Shown: piece after piece, positions 29,603 to 39,997 of the stretch
How positions within the stretch are numbered: the first letter of the stretch is position 1
Layout: the number at the start of each line of letters is the position of its first letter
Origin: Clostridiales bacterium
Lineage (GTDB): Bacteria > Bacillota > Clostridia > Christensenellales > CAG-138
Assembly: GCA_024691085.1 (NCBI GenBank)
Contig: JAILNX010000015.1
Coordinates: 1-64,000 of the forward strand
Direction of reading: 5' to 3'
DNA length: 64,000 bases
Program-made: the position numbers and the translations under genes
Notes under the pieces: model-generated
What the model was told of the DNA's origin: nothing
Seen by the model: the letters and a program-made list of their open reading frames with translations, nothing else
Databases searched by the model: none

Positions 29603-29638
29603 ATAATGATCCCCGGCAGAACGCCGGGGATTATTTAT
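29602..29638. terminator. Bidirectional terminator between the CDF gene and udg
   Basis: Perfect 9-base GC-rich stem ATCCCCGGC (29609-29617)/GCCGGGGAT (29623-29631) with a five-base loop, flanked by AT-rich arms that give T-rich tails both ways. It ends both the efflux transporter transcript and the long minus-strand ornithine operon. Confidence 0.88.
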
Positions 29639-30222
29639 ATCTCTATTACTTCATTTCTCTTGATCCTATCAAGAAGCTTTCTTGCAGTGCACAGATCGTA
29701 AACGAAATCGTTCGTGTATTCCTGTCTTCTTAACAATGCCGCAGGGTGATATGTGGGGATGATGAAAAACAGGCCCTTCTTCTTTACCTGTCCGCGCTGC
29801 TTCGAGATCTGGATCTCGCTGTCGTAAACGTACTTCGCGGCGATCCTGCCGAGGCATACGATCACCTTCGGGCGAACGAGAGCGATCTGCGCCCGAAGAT
29901 AGGGGAGACAGGCTTCGGCTTCATCGGGAAAGGGATCGCGGTTCTGCGGAGGACGGCATTTTACTATGTTGCAGATGTAAACGTCTTCTCTTTTTAAACC
30001 CGCTTCTTCAAGCAGCACGTTGAAAAGCCTTCCGGCGGCGCCGACGAAAGGTATTCCCTGTTCATCCTCTTCACGTCCCGGACCTTCGCCGATGAACATT
30101 ATCTCGGAATCGGGCTTTCCGTCGGAAATAACGACGTTTGTACGGTGCTCGCAAAGTCTGCACTTGCTGCATCCGTTCAGATCGCCGTAAAGCGTATTCC
30201 AGTCGAATCTGAGTACCGGCAT
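29635..30222 (-). CDS. Uracil-DNA glycosylase, family 4 type (Fe-S)
   Basis: Removes uracil from DNA in base-excision repair. Signature motifs of the iron-sulfur family: the N-terminal C-x2-C pair (GCSKCRLCEHRTNVV), GEGPGREEDEQGIPFVGAAG (residues 45-64), CNIVKCRPPQNRDP with a third ligand region, and the late HPAALLR motif. Length 195 is typical. It starts 1 base after alr stops and is the last gene of the ornithine operon. It has no evident metabolic link, so it is probably carried along by read-through. Confidence 0.93.
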   Translation of the reverse strand: MPVLRFDWNTLYGDLNGCSKCRLCEHRTNVVISDGKPDSEIMFIGEGPGREEDEQGIPFVGAAGRLFNVLLEEAGLKREDVYICNIVKCRPPQNRDPFPDEAEACLPYLRAQIALVRPKVIVCLGRIAAKYVYDSEIQISKQRGQVKKKGLFFIIPTYHPAALLRRQEYTNDFVYDLCTARKLLDRIKRNEVIEI

Positions 30223-30223
30223 A

Positions 30224-31387
30224 TCAACGGTTGAGGTAGAAGGTATGCGCGCGGCGGGAGATGTCGCAGGTGACCTCGTAGTTGATGGTGTTAACCATTA
30301 CGGAGACTTCCTCCGCGGAGATGCCGCCCTTGCCGAATATAATGACCTCATCGCCGCGTTTGACGTCGGAGCCGGTAACGTCGCACATACACATATCCAT
30401 GCAGACGCGGCCGATCTGGGGGAATCGCTGACCGTTTATGGTCATGATCGCCTGGTTTGTCAGCCTTCTGGGGAAGCCGTCGGCGTAACCTATGGAGATA
30501 ACGGCTACCTTCATATCGTGCTCTGCTTTATAAAGCCTGCCGTAGCTGATGGTGGAACCCTTCGGGATATCCCTTACGAGCGCTACGCGGGATTTAAGCG
30601 TCATGACGGGCTTCAATTCTCCCTCTTGCGGCTTGGAATCGGGATACATGCCGTAGAGTATGATACCCTCGCGGACGTAATCGAAGTGGAGCTCGGGGTA
30701 TTCCATGATAGTCGCGGAGTTGGAGACGTGGCATTTCTCAATGTGGATACCGCGAGCGATAAGGCCGTTTCTCACGTCGCAGTAATTCTTGTACTGCGCT
30801 TTTGTATAATCTAACTGCTCGGGAACGTCGGCAACGGCAAAGTGCGTATAAAGTCCGACGGCGTTAAGGTGGGGAAGATTATAGATGTGCTCGGCGTCGT
30901 CGATCGCTTTGTCTATGACTTTGCGACCGCCTATGTGACCGTGCGCGTAAAGGCCGATCCTGCCCATGCCGGTGTCTATCTTGATATGGACCTTTATCCT
31001 GACGTGAGCCTCCTCGGCGGCGGCGTTGAGCTCGTCAGCGTGCGATACGTCGACGACAGTCTGCTCGAGATCGTAATATGCAAGTTCCTTGACAAAGAGG
31101 GCAGGGGTGTAGCCGAGAATAAGGATGGGGATATGAATGCCGTTCTCACGAAGCTCGAGCGCCTCCTCGATGCACGCGACGGCGAACATATCGGCGCCGT
31201 TATCCTGCAGATATTTGCCGCACTCGACGGCTCCGTGACCGTATGCGTCGCCCTTTATGACGCAGATAACGGGCTTTCCGGAGATCCTCTTTGCATACTC
31301 GAGATTGGATTTCATCGCGGAAAGGTCGATTTCTGCCCAGGTGCGGTACCTTAAATTGTTCTGGAAAGTAACATTGTGAACGAACAT
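30224..31387 (-). CDS. alr: Alanine racemase
   Basis: PLP enzyme interconverting L- and D-alanine. The PLP lysine motif is CVIKGDAYGHG (Lys45; most relatives have Ala where Gly46 stands). Family segments include KIDTGMGRIG, SNSAT, DYVREGIILYG and the tyrosine-bearing ISIGYADGFPRR; CMDMCMCDV lies near the C-terminus. The SD is GAGG, spaced from the ATG at 31387. It follows orr by 10 bases in the ornithine operon. The upstream OrtAB thiolase releases D-alanine, so this racemase plausibly recovers it as L-alanine. It could also provide D-alanine for the cell wall; whether another alr exists is unknown. Confidence 0.93.
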   Translation of the reverse strand: MFVHNVTFQNNLRYRTWAEIDLSAMKSNLEYAKRISGKPVICVIKGDAYGHGAVECGKYLQDNGADMFAVACIEEALELRENGIHIPILILGYTPALFVKELAYYDLEQTVVDVSHADELNAAAEEAHVRIKVHIKIDTGMGRIGLYAHGHIGGRKVIDKAIDDAEHIYNLPHLNAVGLYTHFAVADVPEQLDYTKAQYKNYCDVRNGLIARGIHIEKCHVSNSATIMEYPELHFDYVREGIILYGMYPDSKPQEGELKPVMTLKSRVALVRDIPKGSTISYGRLYKAEHDMKVAVISIGYADGFPRRLTNQAIMTINGQRFPQIGRVCMDMCMCDVTGSDVKRGDEVIIFGKGGISAEEVSVMVNTINYEVTCDISRRAHTFYLNR

Positions 31388-31397
31388 ATTAAACCTC

Positions 31398-32471
31398 TTA
31401 TTTCAGGTCGATATAGGTCCTATCGACATATTTGCTTGTAAACAGGTGGAGCAGCGCTCCATAATCGGGAACGAATCGAACAACGTCGCCGACCTTGTAT
31501 TCCTTTTTCGCTTCGTTAAGGTTGATTATTAGATGATCGGAGCTTGCGCCGATGATCTCTATATCCTTATCCAAAGGAGTTAGTCCGTCGACGGACACGT
31601 CCTGCCGGCCAATCGCGAGGATAGCTCGCTTCATCATGCCTCTGTCGGGGTACTCGAGGTATTCGCCGAACGCGTTGGGACCGGACTTGCCTATGGGCTT
31701 CGACGGCTTTGTTTTGAGCTCGACGATCTCCGCTTCAAGAACGAAGCAATCTGTGTTAAGACCTTTGACGGGCTTTCCTATTGCGGTATCGTTTCCGAGA
31801 ACGAAGGACTCGCCGAGCCTTAAATGATTGACGCCCTCGGGTACGATTCGTTCCGTGAGCATTCCCATTGTCGACGAGTTGCCGCCAGAAACGATGGGGA
31901 TCGTAACGCCGAGATCGCGTTCAAGACGGTTTTTGATCTCAACAAGTCCGCCGAGGTTGTTCTCGTCGGGAAGTATTCCGCCGTAACAGGTGAGATTCAC
32001 GCCTATACCGTAAAGCTCAAGATGTTCCGAATCATTTATTGCACGAGCGGTATTGAGAATAACGTCGTAATGCTTGTTGAATATGCCCTCGCGAAGATCG
32101 CCCATATCGACCATAAGGATAATTCGGTGAGTTTTGTTGAGCTTCTTTGCGGCTTCGTTGAGCTTCATGATCGTTTCAAGCTCGCTCTGCATCGAGATCT
32201 CTGCGCAGGATACGATCTTCTCTGCTTCCGACTGCATGCCGATCCTGAGGAGAAGACGCGGCTTCTCGGTCTTCATTCCCGAGAGATTCTGCGTGCGGGA
32301 ATCCGCGAGCATATCGGCATCCGATGCGTTTATAAGCTCGACGATCCGTTCATCGGCGCAGAAAACCTTCGTGACGATGGCGGTTTTGATCCCCTGGCTG
32401 TGGCAGAGGTCGTTCAAAAAATCAAGGTTTTCATTAAGCTTATTAAGATCTACAACGATTCTTGGATACAT
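31398..32471 (-). CDS. orr: Ornithine racemase
   Basis: PLP-dependent fold-type III racemase that converts L-ornithine to D-ornithine, the entry step of oxidative ornithine degradation in clostridia. The PLP lysine is Lys35 in IVTKVFCADE. The segments MVDMGDLREGIF (replacing the alanine racemase DTGMGR) and VSGGNSSTMGML are as in clostridial Orr-type proteins. Length 357 residues. The operon context with oraSE, ortAB and ord makes the ornithine specificity very likely. It starts 10 bases after the reactivase gene. Confidence 0.92.
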   Translation of the reverse strand: MYPRIVVDLNKLNENLDFLNDLCHSQGIKTAIVTKVFCADERIVELINASDADMLADSRTQNLSGMKTEKPRLLLRIGMQSEAEKIVSCAEISMQSELETIMKLNEAAKKLNKTHRIILMVDMGDLREGIFNKHYDVILNTARAINDSEHLELYGIGVNLTCYGGILPDENNLGGLVEIKNRLERDLGVTIPIVSGGNSSTMGMLTERIVPEGVNHLRLGESFVLGNDTAIGKPVKGLNTDCFVLEAEIVELKTKPSKPIGKSGPNAFGEYLEYPDRGMMKRAILAIGRQDVSVDGLTPLDKDIEIIGASSDHLIINLNEAKKEYKVGDVVRFVPDYGALLHLFTSKYVDRTYIDLK

Positions 32472-32481
32472 AGTGATCTCC

Positions 32482-33843
32482 TTATATCCCGAGACTGTTT
32501 TTCATAAGCCTCAGCGCCGCTTCGGGATATTTTTTGCTCAATACTCCGAGCGAAGCCATGATATAGTCGTTATCGTAAAGCAGATTCAGAACGGAGGGTT
32601 TGGGGAAAAGCATCATTCCGCTGTCGTTTGAGTCGGCGATCCTGCGAAGGAGGTTTTCCCTGTCCGGGAGCCTTGTAAGAGCGCCGCCCGTCGCGACGAG
32701 GTATTTGAGTTTGGTAAGGTCCTTGCCTTCCGCAATGGTCTGCCTTCCGCGGGGAGTATAGATATACCTTAATGCGCCGGCGTGCCTTTCGACCGACGTG
32801 ATACCCGCGGCGAGGCAAAGCCTTTGAGTAAGCTTGAACTGCTCGGGAGTTTCGGGAATGGGCTTATATTCGCTTACGGTCTTATCCATATCGATACCGA
32901 GCTCCTGTTCGAGCTTATCCTTGCCGATCATATCGATAAGATTATGAGCGTTTACATAAAGACCTAAATCGCCCTCGACGGTCCTCTTGGCGAAGGGCTC
33001 GGGCGTTGTCTGTATGCTGGCGATCTCATCTGAACCGGGCGTCACGGAATGAACGTCGGTTGTCGCGCCGCCGATATCTATCACGGCAAGATCGCCTATC
33101 TCGTTATACAGAAGCTGAGCCGATTCCATAACGGCGCCGGGAGTGGGGATGATGTTGCCTGCGATCATTTCGCGGACGTGCTCCATACCAGCAGCCTTGA
33201 CGATATGTTCCTCGAAAACCGCATGAATGATCTTCCTTGCAGGCTCTATGTTAAGAAGATCGAGCTTCGGATAAACGTTTTCGGTTATGTAAAGCGGAAT
33301 ATCTGTGTCCGCAAAAATGTCTTTTATAATGTGGTGATTCTGAATGTTTCCCGCGTATATCACGGGGACTTTCATGCCGCTTTTCGCGATCTTCTTCGCG
33401 TTCTCGACGGCGGTTTCCCTCTCGCCGTAATCGGTACCTCCGGCAAGAAGAATAAGGTTGGGATCGATAGCCCTTACGTCCTCGATATCATAATCGGACA
33501 TTATACCCGCTGTCGCGTGCTTAATAATGGCTCCTGCGCCGAGAGCAGCCGCGCGGGCGGCCTTAACGGTCATATCGTAGACGAGGCCGTGAACGGTCAT
33601 CCTGAGACCGCCGGCGGCGCTTGATGTCGCGAAAGCGATGCCGTATTCAACGGAATCGACGCCGAGATTTTTGGCGAGGTCGGATATGGCGGCTTTGAGA
33701 CCGACGCGAACGTCGCCCTCAAGCACGGAGGTGGAAGCCTGTCCCTGCCCGAGGAATACGGGATCGTCCGTGTCTATGCCGTTAAACGCGTTGACAAGGG
33801 TGGTTGTGGAGCCGATTTCGTAAACGAGAACGTCGATTTTCAT
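32482..33843 (-). CDS. GlmL/MutL-like reactivating ATPase for the B12 aminomutase
   Basis: ASKHA-fold ATPase of the family typified by GlmL (MutL), linked to adenosylcobalamin-dependent mutases. The nucleotide-binding phosphate-1 region reads YEIGSTTTLVNAF (residues 8-20). Further motifs are LLAGGTDYGE and the phosphate-2 region VIDIGGATTDVHSV. At 453 residues it is the usual size. It lies directly after oraE with only a hairpin between, and its likely job is to exchange damaged cobalamin from OraSE. This is family knowledge plus context; the protein itself gives no direct sign of its partner. It is not the mismatch-repair MutL, which is at 52287. Confidence 0.88.
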   Translation of the reverse strand: MKIDVLVYEIGSTTTLVNAFNGIDTDDPVFLGQGQASTSVLEGDVRVGLKAAISDLAKNLGVDSVEYGIAFATSSAAGGLRMTVHGLVYDMTVKAARAAALGAGAIIKHATAGIMSDYDIEDVRAIDPNLILLAGGTDYGERETAVENAKKIAKSGMKVPVIYAGNIQNHHIIKDIFADTDIPLYITENVYPKLDLLNIEPARKIIHAVFEEHIVKAAGMEHVREMIAGNIIPTPGAVMESAQLLYNEIGDLAVIDIGGATTDVHSVTPGSDEIASIQTTPEPFAKRTVEGDLGLYVNAHNLIDMIGKDKLEQELGIDMDKTVSEYKPIPETPEQFKLTQRLCLAAGITSVERHAGALRYIYTPRGRQTIAEGKDLTKLKYLVATGGALTRLPDRENLLRRIADSNDSGMMLFPKPSVLNLLYDNDYIMASLGVLSKKYPEAALRLMKNSLGI

Positions 33844-33857
33844 GTTTTACCCGGAAA

Positions 33858-33889
33858 TGGAACCGCCGACCGTGCTGCCGGCGGTTCCA
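33858..33889 (-). other. Intercistronic hairpin between oraE and the reactivase
   Basis: Perfect 11-base stem TGGAACCGCCG (33858-33868)/CGGCGGTTCCA (33879-33889) with a 10-base loop. There is no T-tract on the minus strand, so it is not a standard terminator. It is more likely an RNA-processing or stability element that keeps the 3' end of the oraE message or reduces downstream expression. Confidence 0.7.
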
Positions 33890-33903
33890 TAATCAAAAAC
33901 TGA

Positions 33904-36129
33904 TTAGATCTTGCCTTCTTTTTCCATTTCCCATCTCTTTTTGATGAGGAAGGTCGCGTCGTGAACGCCGTGGCTGCCGCGGCCGAAGCCTTCGTCGGCG
34001 CCGGCTTTTCTCGCGAGCTCGGGTGTGACCTGAGTTCCGCCCGCGATGAATATGATCTTGTCGCGGATACCCATCTCGCGGCAGATCTGGTCGATCTTGG
34101 CGATGTTCTTATAGTGTATATCGTCGTGGCTGATGATGGTCGAAGCCATTATCGCGTCGGCGTGCGTCTCGATAGCCGCGTTGACGAGCTTCTCGGGCGA
34201 GCAGGAGGTACCGAGGTAGATGACCTCCATACCGTACTTCTCGATACCGCCGTGCTTGATATCGATGATCTCGCGGAGACCGACGGAGTGCTCGTCTTCA
34301 CCGACCGTCGCTGCGACGATCTTCATAGGACGGCGCTCGATATCTGCGCGGATCTCGGCGTCGGAGAGCACGTCGGGCTCTTTGGGGATAACGAGCGAGT
34401 CGACGTCGATCTCGAACGGGACCTTGCCCTTGACCTCGATTCGGGTGCCGTCCTGCGGATGCATGATCTCGCGGGAGATGACCTCGCACTCGACAAGGTT
34501 CATGCGCTTGGCGCACTCAAGAGCCGCTGCCTCGGCGATCTGCTTGGGGGCGGGGAAGAACATGGTGAGCATGACCGTACCGTCGGCGAGCCATTCCATC
34601 TCGGGACGGATCTTTTTGCCGCCCGGGGTGAAATCGCGGGTCTCGGACATACGGACGTTGACGTTATCGTTCTCGTCAAGCTCGTCGATATAAATTATCT
34701 TGTCGGGATCTTCAAGGGTGCATCCGCCGATAAGCGCGGAGGGGTTAGCGGGATCTCCGCCGTACTGCCCGACGTTGTTGTAGCCGTAGTGAGCGGTTAC
34801 GGGAGCCATGTACTGCTTGTCGCGCTTTACGATCGTGCCGGCTCCTATTCCGCCGTTGATCTTTCTCGCGATGCCGTCGCCGTTCCTTTCGGGGTAGATG
34901 CCGCTGTCAACGAAGAAGCCTTCTTCAACCGCCGCGTAATAGCCGCCGAGCTCGAGCATCTCCTCCATGAAGAGGACAGCCCTTTCCTTTAGCTCGCGTG
35001 CCTTCTCGCGTAGGTAGCCGTCTTTCTTGAGCTCCACCATATCCATAAGGCCGTCCATGCCGATCAGCGCCTGCTTCGCGGTGTCGCAAGCCTCGATGTT
35101 GTAGATATGCCAGGGAACGTTACGCCCCTCGTCCGGAGTGATGGTCGACTGGATATCGGCGCTGGTGAGCTTCGAGATGACCATGTTGAGGACGTGGGTA
35201 ACGGTAGCCTCGCGGGTGGACGACTCGATGTACTTCGTGTTCATCTGGGCCCTCATGCGGTATTCATGGAACAGATCGCGAAGAGCGACCGCATAGGGAA
35301 GATCCATGTGAATGCAGGGGGCGGGGGTAGCCGTCGGCGGGACCGTCGAGAGGCAGATGTTCTTCTTGGGAACGCCGACCCTTGCGGAGAATATCGCGTT
35401 GATGCCGTGCTGGACCATGAGCTCGGGCATGACCTTCCATGCCTCGCGCGCGGTGGCGTTGGCGTTATGCGCGCCGTCGATCTGCGCCATATTCGCCCAA
35501 GCGATGAGCTTCTTGGATTCGCAAGCGTCGACGAACGAACGCATCATGTTGATGTTGCGGTAGATAACGTTATACTGCGGATCCTGATGGACGCCGTTCA
35601 CGCCTTCCTCGGCGAACATTACGGCGATATCGGGACCTGCGACGCCGGAAACGTAGCTGTGATAATTGATGGGACGGCCGACTTCGTCCTCGATCATATC
35701 GAGGGCTTTACGCTGAGCCCTGACCTGCTTGCGGGTAATGGGAACGCCGCCCATGCCCTGGGGAGTGCCCTCTATAAGGCCGTCAAAGTGGCTCTGACCG
35801 GCGGTACGGATGACCATGATATGATCAGCGCCGTGGTGTGCCGCCATGCGCATACGGCGGATATCGTCCTCAAAACGTCCGGACGCGATCTCGGTCGTGA
35901 TAACGGGAGCGGGCTGGGGATCGATATCACCGAAATAATGAGCGGGGGGAAGGGGAACGGAGCGCTTCAGAGGCTCAGTCGCTTCCCGGTATTCGAACGG
36001 ACCCATGTGAAGGTTAGGAACGGGTTTGCGCCACGTCCAGCCCCTGCGGCGGGGACGGTAATGCTCGAGGTCTTTAAGTATCTCCGCTACATTGATCGGA
36101 GCATCGGGAGAAAGCTTATAGTCGCTCAT
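33904..36129 (-). CDS. oraE: D-ornithine 4,5-aminomutase, E (large, B12/PLP) subunit
   Basis: With OraS it moves the delta-amino group of D-ornithine to C4, giving (2R,4S)-2,4-diaminopentanoate, using adenosylcobalamin and PLP. The C-terminal B12-binding domain shows the base-off motif D-E-H-S-V-G near residues 613-618. A lysine eleven residues after the motif histidine matches the spacing I recall between the cobalamin histidine and the PLP lysine of the Clostridium sticklandii enzyme. GRGSHGVHDA lies at the end of this domain. Length 741 residues fits the known large subunit. The start overlaps oraS by 4 bases. Confidence 0.96.
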   Translation of the reverse strand: MSDYKLSPDAPINVAEILKDLEHYRPRRRGWTWRKPVPNLHMGPFEYREATEPLKRSVPLPPAHYFGDIDPQPAPVITTEIASGRFEDDIRRMRMAAHHGADHIMVIRTAGQSHFDGLIEGTPQGMGGVPITRKQVRAQRKALDMIEDEVGRPINYHSYVSGVAGPDIAVMFAEEGVNGVHQDPQYNVIYRNINMMRSFVDACESKKLIAWANMAQIDGAHNANATAREAWKVMPELMVQHGINAIFSARVGVPKKNICLSTVPPTATPAPCIHMDLPYAVALRDLFHEYRMRAQMNTKYIESSTREATVTHVLNMVISKLTSADIQSTITPDEGRNVPWHIYNIEACDTAKQALIGMDGLMDMVELKKDGYLREKARELKERAVLFMEEMLELGGYYAAVEEGFFVDSGIYPERNGDGIARKINGGIGAGTIVKRDKQYMAPVTAHYGYNNVGQYGGDPANPSALIGGCTLEDPDKIIYIDELDENDNVNVRMSETRDFTPGGKKIRPEMEWLADGTVMLTMFFPAPKQIAEAAALECAKRMNLVECEVISREIMHPQDGTRIEVKGKVPFEIDVDSLVIPKEPDVLSDAEIRADIERRPMKIVAATVGEDEHSVGLREIIDIKHGGIEKYGMEVIYLGTSCSPEKLVNAAIETHADAIMASTIISHDDIHYKNIAKIDQICREMGIRDKIIFIAGGTQVTPELARKAGADEGFGRGSHGVHDATFLIKKRWEMEKEGKI

Positions 36130-36494
36130 TGTTCATTACCTCCTTTGAAAAGCTTTTCGGCGTCATCCCAGAGCCTGCCCTCAACGAGTTCAAGACCTGC
36201 GGGACGGATCTCCATGTTCTTGGCCTTGGCGAGACGGTAAACGACGTTGCCCGCGCCGTAGCACATAAGGGAACGCTCTACGCATCCCTCAACGATGGCT
36301 TTCGCCTCGATAGAGGAGAATCCCATACGAAGAAGTACGGAACGCTCGATGGCGGGGGAGGTGTATTCCTTGCCCATCTCGAGAAGCGGATCGACGAGCT
36401 TGTTCGCAAGCTCCCAGAAGCGCTCTTCGAGCTGCTTATCGGTCAGATCCTTAAGGTGTTCACGGCGATCAAGATAATCGTCTTCACGTTTCAT
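36126..36494 (-). CDS. oraS: D-ornithine 4,5-aminomutase, S (small) subunit
   Basis: Small (122 residues), highly charged helical subunit needed for OraE activity; it associates with the large subunit but carries no cofactor motif. Recognised by size, position directly before oraE with a 4-base overlap, and the family stretches RREHLKDLTDKQLEERFW and GAGNVVYRLAK. The neighbour upstream is ortB, 19 bases away. I see no unusual features. Confidence 0.94.
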   Translation of the reverse strand: MKREDDYLDRREHLKDLTDKQLEERFWELANKLVDPLLEMGKEYTSPAIERSVLLRMGFSSIEAKAIVEGCVERSLMCYGAGNVVYRLAKAKNMEIRPAGLELVEGRLWDDAEKLFKGGNEQ

Positions 36495-36513
36495 ATTCTG
36501 ATTCCTCCAAGTC

Positions 36514-37908
36514 TTATAATGAAGCTATCGCGTTGCGAACGAATTCTTCGTTTGTATTGGTCTCCTCGATAAGGAACTTGATATCCTCGTCTGTGAGTTC
36601 GTCCTTATGTGAACCGACAGCCCTCTTGATCCTCGACTTGCGCATATGATCGAGATCGAGGTCGGTGACCTGAATAAGGGAAGGATGAGCGGGGAGAATG
36701 ATGTTTTTGCCCGGGATCTCGTCCTTAGGATCGCCGAAGTGAATGTCTATACCGTTCTGGCGGGCAAACGAGAGCTGCGGATTGATATGCTTGCCGGCGC
36801 CGGTATATTCTGTCTCCTGCACGACGATGCACTGATCGCGATCCATATCCTGGGCAAGACGGAACGCTGCGGCGAGCGAAGTGTTTCCAGCGGGACCCTT
36901 CTCGAGACCTTCGAGGGAGGCGAGACATTCAGTGATGTAGAATACGCTGCCCTGAGTTACCGTAACGTACCTGTCCATATATCTTAAAGGCCTGGCGGCG
37001 CTCCTCGGAACGTCGGAGTGGTCGGGGTTGACGGAATAGGGCACGCCGAAACCGGTATGACCGGTGGTAAAGCTCTTCTTATTGAACTGATTGTCGCTTG
37101 CCATATGAAGACCGGAAAGGTTTACGGAAGCGGCGATGACCTTGGCATCGCAGCCCGCTTTCCTTAAACCTCGCGCGGTACCGGTGAGGTTTCCGCCGCC
37201 TGCGTTGGTGCAGACGACCACGTCGGGATCCTTGCCGATCTTCGCCCTGAACTGCTCCGCGATCTCATAGCCAAGCGTCTCAACGCCGGCAATACCGAAC
37301 GGAGTATAGAGTGAGGCGTTGAAGTAACCCGTCTCCTCAAGGAGCTGAAGAACTGTGGAGAAGAGCTCGGGACCGACGGTAAGCTGAACGACCTCGGCGC
37401 CGAGGGCTTCGCACTTCCTTGCTTTTTCGATTATCTCGGGCTGGCCGATTCCCTTGGAGTCGTAGCACTCCTGGACGACGATACACTTAAGACCTGCCAT
37501 GGCGGCGCAGCAGGCGACGGCAGCGCCGTAGTTGCCGCTTGTCGCGGTTACTACGCCCTTATAGCCGAGTTTCTTTGCCTGATAAACGCTGGTGCATGCG
37601 CGGCGGGCCTTGAAGCTGCCGGAGGGGTTGGACGCCTCGTCCTTGATGAATATGCGGGCGCCTTTTCCTTCGGGAGCGCATTTCCTCGCAAGCTCGGTGA
37701 GGTTCTTGAGCTCGATAAGAGGAGTGTTGCCTATGGAGAACATGGACTGTACGCGCCTGATCTCATCGATGGTGTAGCCGGTCGCGGCCATCATCGCTTC
37801 GTAATCGAAACCTATGCCGGGCTTTTCGAACTTATCGAAATCCATGCCGACGGCATTCTTAATGATCTCGTTTTTGCGGGCCATTATCGCGTCATAGCTG
37901 TTATCCAT
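36514..37908 (-). CDS. ortB: 2-amino-4-ketopentanoate thiolase, beta (PLP) subunit
   Basis: PLP-dependent subunit of the two-component thiolase that splits (2R)-2-amino-4-oxopentanoate with CoA into acetyl-CoA and D-alanine. It belongs to the fold-type II (threonine synthase/cysteine synthase) group: the PLP lysine is in ASNPSGSFKARRA (about residues 91-103), followed by ATSGNYGAAVA and the phosphate-binding glycine loop NAGGGNLTG. Length 464. The start overlaps the ortA stop by one base. Identification rests on fold plus operon position between ortA and oraS, and is strong. Confidence 0.94.
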   Translation of the reverse strand: MDNSYDAIMARKNEIIKNAVGMDFDKFEKPGIGFDYEAMMAATGYTIDEIRRVQSMFSIGNTPLIELKNLTELARKCAPEGKGARIFIKDEASNPSGSFKARRACTSVYQAKKLGYKGVVTATSGNYGAAVACCAAMAGLKCIVVQECYDSKGIGQPEIIEKARKCEALGAEVVQLTVGPELFSTVLQLLEETGYFNASLYTPFGIAGVETLGYEIAEQFRAKIGKDPDVVVCTNAGGGNLTGTARGLRKAGCDAKVIAASVNLSGLHMASDNQFNKKSFTTGHTGFGVPYSVNPDHSDVPRSAARPLRYMDRYVTVTQGSVFYITECLASLEGLEKGPAGNTSLAAAFRLAQDMDRDQCIVVQETEYTGAGKHINPQLSFARQNGIDIHFGDPKDEIPGKNIILPAHPSLIQVTDLDLDHMRKSRIKRAVGSHKDELTDEDIKFLIEETNTNEEFVRNAIASL

Positions 37909-38207
37909 CAGTCTTCACCTCCGAACGTGATCTTGCGGACGGTATTGCCTATCTCGAGCACCTCGGGAATAAAGAAGCCGAAGTTGTGCTCAAAATACGG
38001 GTTGACCTTGACGACAACGCCTTTGGCGTGACGTCCGGTCCTAGTGATGACCTCGGCATTCTCGCCGATTTCTGCGTCGTTTACGAGGTAACCCTTTACC
38101 CACATCTCAAGAGGATTGCTCTTGGTATCCTCGGGGAGTGAGTTCGAACGTTCTTCTGGGGTAAGAACAACGTTGTGTATCTGTACCCAATCGCCTTTTT
38201 TTGCCAT
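37908..38207 (-). CDS. ortA: 2-amino-4-ketopentanoate thiolase, alpha subunit
   Basis: Small partner (99 residues) of OrtB. The start is the ATG at 38207 (Met-Ala-Lys-Lys-Gly-Asp-Trp-Val), with GGAGG 9 bases upstream; a TTG seven codons earlier has no SD. The KGDWVQIHNVVL N-terminus and the glycine/arginine-containing RTGRHAKG segment match the clostridial small subunit as I know it. There is no cofactor motif of its own. It sits between ord and ortB, in the order expected for the pathway. Confidence 0.92.
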   Translation of the reverse strand: MAKKGDWVQIHNVVLTPEERSNSLPEDTKSNPLEMWVKGYLVNDAEIGENAEVITRTGRHAKGVVVKVNPYFEHNFGFFIPEVLEIGNTVRKITFGGED

Positions 38208-38233
38208 TTCTGTTAGCCTCCGAATCAAATGAC

Positions 38234-38257
38234 GGGAAACGGTAAGATCCGTTTCCC
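38234..38257 (-). other. Intercistronic hairpin between ord and ortA
   Basis: Perfect 9-base stem GGGAAACGG (38234-38242)/CCGTTTCCC (38249-38257) around a six-base loop. On the operon's strand no T-run follows, so transcription should continue. It separates the first gene (ord) from the thiolase and aminomutase genes and may give different message stabilities. Confidence 0.65.
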
Positions 38258-38264
38258 ATTCTTT

Positions 38265-39311
38265 TTATTTCTCAATATAGTCGCGGAAGTCGCCCATTAT
38301 AGCATGGGGGACGGGAAGATCGATCATGGTCTTGAGACCGGGCTTCGCGTTGATGACGTGAGGGATCATGTTGACGCACATTGCGATAGTGCCGAGGCCG
38401 CCCTCAACTTCGGGGGTGTTGGCAACGTGGATGGCGGGAGTGCCTTCGATCACGACGTAATCGCCGGTATGAGTGCCCTCCATCTCGGGCTCGATCTGCT
38501 GGGGATGGATGAGGTCGATCTTCATCTTGCCGTCAACGTAAGCCTGAGCGGTCATATTGACGCCGGCAACGTTGCCCGCAGCCGCGAATCCGTAAGGAGC
38601 CTTGCGGTCGACCTTGGTCACGATGGGAGCCATCTGCTTTTCAAACTTGTCGATCTTCCAGCCGAGCGCTTCGGCTATCATGCCGGCGGACTCTTCGAAT
38701 CCGACGTGACCGGCAAGAGTGCCGTCCTCGACGCCCTTGTTGAATTCGTCAACGGTGATTCCGATGCCCTGCTCCTTCATAACGGCGGGGCCGAAGGGGG
38801 AGAGGGAGTTAACGCGTTTGCACATGACGCTCTCAACGTCGATCATGCAGCCGGAGAGGCATATCGCGAGGAGGTCCATCATGAGACCCGGATTGATGCC
38901 GGTGCCGAGTACGGTAACGCCGTTCTCCTTGGCGATGCGGTCAAGCTCTGCGGCGAGATCGGGATGCTGAGCCTTCGGATAGCTCATCTCCTCTGCGGTG
39001 GTGACGACGTTGATGCCGTTCTCGAGAACGAACTTGATCTTGGGGAATACGGCGGGAACGAACGAATCGGTCGCTACTATTGCGACGTCAGCCGCTCCTT
39101 TATAAATAACGGAATTGATGTCGTTTGAAATGAGGACGTCCTTGCGGCCGGCTCTGTCGATGCCGAGACGCTCAAAAATGCTTACGCCGTTCAGTTTGTC
39201 CCAAAGATCGCATACGCCTGTAATCTCAACGCCCTTCTTACCGAGGAGCATCTTGGCAATACCCGAACCCATGGCGCCGAAGCCCCAAATCGCAACTCTA
39301 ACGTTTCCCAT
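38265..39311 (-). CDS. ord: 2,4-diaminopentanoate dehydrogenase
   Basis: Oxidatively deaminates (2R,4S)-2,4-diaminopentanoate at C4 to 2-amino-4-oxopentanoate plus ammonia, with NAD(P)+. The N-terminal Rossmann fold has VAIWGFGAMGSGIAKMLL (residues 5-22); the family segments TAEEMSYP and GTGINPGLMMD follow, as in dihydrodipicolinate-reductase-like oxidoreductases. The start is the ATG at 39311, five bases after GGAGG; a TTG four codons earlier would run through the SD. Length 348. It is the first gene of the operon, directly behind the promoter at 39359-39387. Confidence 0.95.
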   Translation of the reverse strand: MGNVRVAIWGFGAMGSGIAKMLLGKKGVEITGVCDLWDKLNGVSIFERLGIDRAGRKDVLISNDINSVIYKGAADVAIVATDSFVPAVFPKIKFVLENGINVVTTAEEMSYPKAQHPDLAAELDRIAKENGVTVLGTGINPGLMMDLLAICLSGCMIDVESVMCKRVNSLSPFGPAVMKEQGIGITVDEFNKGVEDGTLAGHVGFEESAGMIAEALGWKIDKFEKQMAPIVTKVDRKAPYGFAAAGNVAGVNMTAQAYVDGKMKIDLIHPQQIEPEMEGTHTGDYVVIEGTPAIHVANTPEVEGGLGTIAMCVNMIPHVINAKPGLKTMIDLPVPHAIMGDFRDYIEK

Positions 39312-39358: not shown

Positions 39359-39387
39359 ATTATACCATATCATGCCTCATACTGCAA
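39359..39387 (-). promoter_or_regulatory. Promoter of the ornithine catabolic operon
   Basis: On the minus strand TTGCAG (39382-39387), a 17-base spacer and TATAAT (39359-39364), with TGG directly before the -10 (extended -10). The weak -35 with an extended -10 is compatible with activator control. It is the only clear promoter before ord and should drive all nine genes to 29635. Confidence 0.8.
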
Positions 39388-39430
39388 ACGCAAAACGGTA
39401 TATCCAAAGATTATATTTTCCTGAAACAGT

Positions 39431-39481: not shown

Positions 39482-39997
39482 TTATGCCCAGGGATCCGAG
39501 GATTTCGGCTGCCTTATGCCAACAAGCAGACCTTCGAACTGCCATACGAACCACTGATCCGTGGAGGGCTTATGACGCAGAACTATATACCTGTCGGAAT
39601 CGGCGCCGGAGGACCTTAAGAAGATCTTGAGATAGCCTTCATTGAACTGGTCGCGGCTGTGTGCGCCTTCGAAGACAGTTATGGAACAGGGCATTGAAGG
39701 AGTATAGTTGTTGTCGGGCGAAGTACCGGCAAAATAGGAACGGGGAACGTAATCATTTCCGTCCATGAATCTGTCCTTGATAAAGGAGATATCGAAGTTA
39801 GTAAGAGGACGGGGCCCCTTAAGATAATTCAGCATCTCGAAGCACGCTTCACGATTCTTTGGAAACTCGTTGAATGCAAGCACGCAAAGGGCTGTCACGG
39901 CATAGGGATCGTTGAGCCCGGCGCCTTCGAGTTTCATCATTTCTTCAAGCGATCCGGGGATCGACTCGAATTCAAAAGTCTTTTTTAAAGTATCCAT
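39482..39997 (-). CDS. Conserved protein of unknown function (DUF6935-like)
   Basis: A 171-residue cytoplasmic protein without signal peptide or membrane segment. I recognise the pattern of a small conserved Firmicute family (I believe DUF6935): DPYAVTALCVLAF near residue 30, MLNYLKGPRPLT, then SYFAG-x-SPDNNYTPSMP, then SSGADSDRYIVLRHKPSTDQW, and a C-terminal LL-x-x-IR-P-x-x-x-DPWA. The family number is from memory and may be wrong. The conserved polar motifs suggest a binding or enzymatic role, but none is known. It has its own promoter and terminator. Confidence 0.7.
   Translation of the reverse strand: MDTLKKTFEFESIPGSLEEMMKLEGAGLNDPYAVTALCVLAFNEFPKNREACFEMLNYLKGPRPLTNFDISFIKDRFMDGNDYVPRSYFAGTSPDNNYTPSMPCSITVFEGAHSRDQFNEGYLKIFLRSSGADSDRYIVLRHKPSTDQWFVWQFEGLLVGIRQPKSSDPWA

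Follow-up and report, generated by a model that had tools for sequence, protein, structure and literature searches.

The window analysed here, the whole 64,000-nucleotide stretch at positions 1 to 64,000 of contig JAILNX010000015.1 from a Clostridiales bacterium (assembly GCA_024691085.1), carries on its minus strand an oxidative ornithine fermentation operon with a gene for alanine racemase (alr) near its end. It is proposed that this enzyme, the one Alr known from the cell, probably equilibrates the D-alanine made by the thiolase OrtAB with the D-alanine pool of the wall and with L-alanine. The gene run itself is real and conserved; its nine co-directional genes, from 39311 to 29635, follow the order ord-ortA-ortB-oraS-oraE-orX-orr-alr-udg:

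38265..39311, minus strand: ord, 2,4-diaminopentanoate dehydrogenase (NF040740, 509.5 bits, cut-off 400; DAP_DH_C)
37908..38207, minus strand: ortA, 2-amino-4-ketopentanoate thiolase small subunit (NF040739, 130.4 bits, cut-off 70)
36514..37908, minus strand: ortB, 2-amino-4-ketopentanoate thiolase pyridoxal 5'-phosphate (PLP) subunit (NF040741, 833.7 bits, cut-off 550)
36126..36494, minus strand: oraS, D-ornithine 4,5-aminomutase small subunit (PF16552, OAM_alpha, E 6e-54)
33904..36129, minus strand: oraE, D-ornithine 4,5-aminomutase large subunit, B12 and PLP (NF040743, 1359.4 bits, cut-off 800)
32482..33843, minus strand: orX, GlmL/MutL-like accessory protein (NF040744, 668.3 bits, cut-off 600; PF13941)
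31398..32471, minus strand: orr, ornithine racemase (NF040742, 468.4 bits, "exception" cut-off 480; gene context)
30224..31387, minus strand: alr, alanine racemase (TIGR00492, 368.5 bits, cut-off 168; PF01168, 206.6 bits; PF00842, 154.7 bits)
29635..30222, minus strand: udg, family 4 uracil-DNA glycosylase, final gene of the run (TIGR00758, 201.2 bits, cut-off 125.3)

The intergenic gaps are 57 (ord-ortA), -1 (ortA-ortB), 19 (ortB-oraS), -4 (oraS-oraE), 60 (oraE-orX), 10 (orX-orr), 10 (orr-alr) and 1 bp (alr-udg). A preliminary description, made from the sequence alone, had reported a complete ornithine pathway in nine tightly spaced minus-strand genes, with alr 10 bases past orr; every gene lies where it was placed, with gaps of -4 to 60 bp and the orr-alr gap measured at 10 bp, and the span then given (30224..39311) holds ord to alr and leaves out udg (29635-30222). 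The set ord, ortA, ortB, oraS and oraE required for oxidative ornithine degradation is complete, its members passing curated cut-offs apart from OraS, which has no NCBIfam match and is identified by Pfam OAM_alpha alone. Orr scores slightly under its model cut-off, and the gene context supports its putative assignment as ornithine racemase. The orX product is a proposed reactivase.

The alr product is predicted to be an alanine racemase by its domains, its motifs and TIGR00492 as the best model. It contains K45 in VIKGDAYGHG and Y282 in ISYGRLY, which we take to be the PLP lysine and the second-base tyrosine of Alr, and it falls below the individual cut-offs of the VanT, DadX and other models. 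A DadX-type assignment was rejected (189.7 bits where the model requires 600, and only one Alr match in the cell). The window belongs to genome G000, a 1.98 Mb assembly that is 94% complete, in which PF01168 has three matches, to alr, to orr and to a contig C8 protein that is YggS by NCBIfam, and PF00842 matches alr alone; the second alr that the preliminary description advised looking for was not found with these two models in this assembly. A D-alanine-D-alanine ligase (Ddl) is encoded on contig C20 (NF002378, 277.4 bits, cut-off 243; TIGR01205, 242.5 bits, just below 245.65). PF07478 was discarded as proof of such a ligase because it is unspecific, matching all 14 control genomes, archaea included; the G000 protein is the only one whose PF07478 match was confirmed by NCBIfam. 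Since the only Alr found occurs together with a D-alanine-D-alanine ligase, the window alr very probably doubles as the wall racemase.

In the proposed scheme, Orr, OraSE, Ord and OrtAB, assigned by family membership, would convert L-ornithine to acetyl-CoA and D-alanine by known chemistry, and Alr would interconvert this D-alanine and L-alanine. That the OrtAB product is D-alanine, as the preliminary description held, agrees with Clostridium sticklandii, for which the available excerpts of PMC3091704 give D-alanine as the oxidative product of ornithine; excerpts of two other papers name L-alanine as the predicted product of C. difficile ornithine oxidation (PMC8803604) or alanine of unspecified chirality (PMC9815643). 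During ornithine fermentation Alr would act mainly from D to L, so that D-alanine would not build up, and the resulting L-alanine would pass to protein, to transamination or out of the cell; under ornithine shortage, Alr would run from L to D and feed the wall. The D-alanine pool would be common to fermentation and peptidoglycan. We infer the common transcript, the direction of flux and the fate of L-alanine.

The linkage was followed through a family set of 103 genomes, 67 with an Orr match and 94 with an Alr match, by comparing the two match tables by eye at a threshold of 1.5 kb. In 16 of the 67 (10 of genus g1 plus G003, G004, G005, G033, G036 and G099) orr and alr lie no more than 1.5 kb apart; the two share a contig in 25/67, so absence is not always provable. 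The orr-alr-udg run is kept in all 10 g1 genomes having an Orr match, G000 included, and recurs in the same form in a second genus (G003), with orr-alr spacings of 10-24 bp across these 11 genomes. Three further g1 genomes (G079, G082 and G089, 53-70% complete) have neither an Orr nor an Alr match; the G089 contig stops inside orX. Four other genera of the family (G004, G005, G033, G036, G099) show the arrangement orr-OTC-alr, where OTC is an ornithine carbamoyltransferase by a family call Pfam-checked on the G004 copy only; the alr of G099, a 67% complete assembly, is split across two frames. An Alr 34% identical to that of the window comes after orX in G032, with orr located elsewhere, and in G017, G018 and G022 the distance from alr to ord is 2.0, 3.0 and 3.7 kb, respectively. 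The remaining genomes have alr at a distance or on a different contig, and no alr was found in G011 and G015. The preliminary description would have given up its idea had alr been absent beside orr in all relatives; the two are adjacent in relatives. Within g1, identity to the window is 93-96% for alr, 96-98% for ortB and 76-83% for the far more variable orr. Three g1 records (L223, L226 and L228) bear titles naming buffalo rumen or sheep omasum.

Beyond the family, 396 genomes of the order, some of them from the family, were examined with the Orr model, and gene neighbourhoods were inspected in all 11 genomes from outside the family that matched strongly (>300 bits). Six have ortB, and two, G230 and G380 from two other families, have alr within 1.5 kb of ord and co-directional with it, in the orders alr-arginine deiminase-ord and alr-unknown gene-ord, respectively. 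At the level of the phylum 96/398 genomes matched, and one Orr locus was inspected in 80 of the 96 (G000, G561, G630, the 13 lowest scoring genomes and second Orr copies were left out), over stretches reaching about 8.5 kb per side, shorter at contig ends. OrtB is encoded near Orr in 36/80, and alr was found in none of these 36 within the inspected stretches, which rules it out as a general member of ornithine clusters. Because the other 44 of these 80 Orr-like loci (L314-L393) show no ortB nearby, some of them through nearby contig ends, the Orr-like family is probably wider than this pathway and includes other racemases. In G763 (L364:7637-9872) 17 bp separate an Orr-like gene from alr in a stretch without ort genes; a member of the pyruvate/2-oxoacid ferredoxin oxidoreductase family immediately precedes this pair. 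A titled collection, in which 80 of at least 552 confirmed loci were kept (73 with ortB), has alr within 1.5 kb in at least six loci, namely five g1 genomes already counted and L262, which bears the title Clostridiales bacterium isolate Nc350_bin65 (alr, a MerR gene on the opposite strand, ord). Among the 171 loci inspected, four outside g1 (L262, L304, L305 and L364) carry alr at most 1.3 kb from orr or ord, in all four co-directional with that neighbour.

In a tree of 55 Alr rows the cluster-linked racemases occupy several places: the window lineage, another that includes G032 (100/99 support), and, apart from these, G230, G380 and L262, whose long branches leave their placement unsure. Because the linked Alrs fall in different lineages, the linkage of alr to orr or ord probably arose more than once. 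Its forms differ as well, with alr at the tail, at the tail after OTC, or upstream of ord. By our estimate about one 2 Mb genome in a thousand would by chance have a given single gene on the strand of orr and no more than 1.5 kb away from it, so that 16/67 is far above chance, though most of the 16 are related by descent; the variety of lineages and forms is a better argument than the count. Alrs of the window lineage also occur in genomes without an Orr match (e.g., G028, G034, G050), so this lineage is not tied to the ornithine pathway. In genera g15, g22 and g25 an Alr 52-62% identical to that of the window is followed by an alpha/beta hydrolase gene and then M55 peptidase genes (G030, G031, G051, G052, G055, G099 and G100, with G054 having the peptidase without the hydrolase; loci L128, L132, L133, L155, L156, L157, L159 and L160). 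Peptidase_M55 was confirmed by Pfam on the G052 copy only, and the G099 Alr is absent from the tree. M55 enzymes can release D-alanine, and this neighbourhood fits an Alr placed beside D-alanine sources.

A single transcript for the nine genes is plausible from their arrangement. Consensus scanning and folding against shuffles gave the following elements:

39359..39388, minus strand: promoter-like site upstream of ord, 10/12 match, extended -10 (consensus scan only)
38232..38259, minus strand: ord|ortA intergenic hairpin, terminator-like per the scan (folding z -3.3)
33844..33903, minus strand: oraE|orX intergenic stretch with a strong hairpin (folding z -5.2)
29609..29631, minus strand: terminator-like hairpin past udg (consensus scan)

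Single promoter-like sites mean little, because the scan returned 15 where 8.3 are expected from shuffles. The preliminary description had put all nine genes behind one promoter; this is made plausible by the site before ord and by the lack of any promoter-like site at the orr-alr junction in the consensus scan, and it is qualified by sites inside orX and alr (the latter a 9/12 minus-strand match at 30734-30705) and by the terminator-like hairpin between ord and ortA. Hairpins with differing sequences occur at ord|ortA and oraE|orX in 10/10 operons showing these junctions (nine of g1 and G003; the G090 stretch, L151, holds neither junction), and 10 of the 20 stretches were folded against shuffles, with z of -2.1 to -5.5. 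They may set different expression of the three operon segments. A DUF6935 gene lies at 39482-39997, just upstream of the promoter-like site of ord, and several g1 genomes likewise have it close to the operon.

Several observations weigh against an equilibrating role tied to fermentation. Two weaker (9/12) minus-strand promoter-like sites within orX (33516-33487 and 33254-33227) and the two junction hairpins would allow orr-alr-udg to be expressed separately. The linkage is a minority state, with orr and alr no more than 1.5 kb apart in 16/67 of the orr-bearing family genomes (the other 51 fail this threshold) and with alr in 0/36 of the ortB-bearing phylum loci over the stretches inspected. 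The alr near ord in G018 runs on the opposite strand, and the single Alr needed for the wall would be retained at any position. PF05222 finds no alanine dehydrogenase in G000 or its sister genome G084, and with no match in nine of the 13 genomes searched, G000 included, this enzyme was rejected as the following step; harvest as pyruvate would therefore need a transaminase, and an energetic gain from alanine is doubtful. Of the preliminary suggestion that the cell harvests both acetyl-CoA and alanine by way of pyruvate, the full pathway and an alr kept across the genus stand, and the missing dehydrogenase matches in G000 and G084 weaken it. The catabolic-wall coupling that it also suggested gains from the recurrence of the linkage elsewhere and loses from the wall's own need for a sole Alr, whose position therefore need not mean catabolism.

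One alternative is a narrower form of the equilibration proposal and compatible with it, in which Alr gives product relief only: excess D-alanine would be harmful, and L-alanine would be excreted with no use for carbon or energy. The lack of an alanine dehydrogenase match in G000, G084, G003, G033, G005, G036 and G099 agrees with it, as does C. sticklandii, which according to excerpts of PMC3091704 is without alanine dehydrogenase and excretes both L- and D-alanine. However, the alr-linked G230 and G380 do carry an alanine dehydrogenase match, and relief alone leaves unexplained why most of the inspected ornithine oxidisers are without the linkage; we hold this account to be possible rather than probable.

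Neutral placement is a serious rival, although on the evidence we consider it unlikely. Here alr, together with udg, would be a housekeeping gene that took up its place after orr in a common ancestor of two genera and remained, with alr serving the wall only and independently of ornithine. Such an origin would account for udg, a gene without a link to ornithine, staying in this run in both g1 and G003, for an Alr that as the only one of the genome is needed regardless, and for the absence of linkage from most relatives inspected. It accounts poorly for linkage that recurs with OTC between the genes, with a distant Alr (G032) and at the ord end (G230, G380, L262), and for the four non-g1 loci among 171 in which a co-directional alr lies no further than 1.3 kb from orr or ord.

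More improbable is that ornithine is a real source of wall D-alanine, with OrtAB feeding the ligase directly, Alr running from D to L on ornithine, and at least one relative, G015, having lost its Alr on account of the D-alanine supplied by OrtAB. The G015 assembly (L426, G015:C117:33000-52000; 96% complete, 4% contamination) carries ord-ortA-ortB-oraS-oraE-orX-orr, and neither the window-protein search nor PF00842 found an Alr in it; it has no D-amino acid transaminase over the cut-off, and has matches to the unspecific PF07478 and to alanine dehydrogenase (PF05222, as in G230 and G380). Judged by gene content, OrtAB could be its D-alanine source; an assembly gap could explain the missing alr equally well. 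The lack of an Alr in an assembly is not by itself a pointer to OrtAB, because G037, not among the genomes listed with an Orr match, likewise has no Alr and no transaminase over the cut-off. D-amino acid transaminase as another D-alanine source was rejected, since none of 12 genomes, G000 included, exceeds the TIGR01121 cut-off of 277 bits (the nearest, G056, G064 and G078, score 194-227 bits). That the alr product is a broad racemase working alongside Orr, with ornithine or some other amino acid as substrate, is very improbable: a PDB search also matches serine, lysine, histidine and broad-specificity racemases, but TIGR00492 is the best model, the competing models stay under their cut-offs, and this is the sole Alr found in a genome that has a D-alanine-D-alanine ligase.

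We favour the equilibrating Alr. That separate Alr lineages are linked to one cluster favours, on comparative grounds, a functional tie over chance. Gut bacteria, C. difficile among them, oxidise ornithine, and should this fermentation be coupled to an enzyme that the wall needs, the supply of ornithine, the building of the wall and the sensitivity to Alr or Ddl inhibitors would be connected. In the open-licence PMC literature we found no paper linking alr to an ornithine cluster, the available parts of PMC8803604, PMC3958899, PMC10536192, PMC3091704, PMC6146663, PMC9815643, PMC11633334 and PMC3364942 containing no such link, and the accessible portions of this literature say little about the fate of ornithine-derived D-alanine.

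Among known systems, the anaerobic oxidative L-ornithine cluster of C. sticklandii and C. difficile (orr, ord, ortAB, oraSE) shares its enzymes with the window operon and has a nearly identical gene order; L275 and L277, both titled C. difficile, read ord-ortA-ortB-oraS-oraE-orX-orr as in the window. The difference is that alr and udg come after orr in the window, whereas L277 has an NhaC-type antiporter gene there and L275 a gene of equal length; L277 holds an alr fragment 7.2 kb off the cluster at the locus edge, and L275 has no alr in its stretch. The enterobacterial catabolic DadX/DadA system is alike in placing a racemase in an alanine-handling catabolic context; unlike there, the window Alr is the only Alr found, its D-alanine would come from a thiolase, and it does not reach the DadX model. 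The arginine deiminase-ornithine route joined to ornithine oxidation is echoed by OTC after orr in several relatives and by arginine deiminase between alr and ord in G230, whereas the window operon contains neither, the arginine deiminase match of G000 being on another contig. The ornithine pathway and its cluster are already known; what is new is the built-in, apparently sole, alanine racemase.

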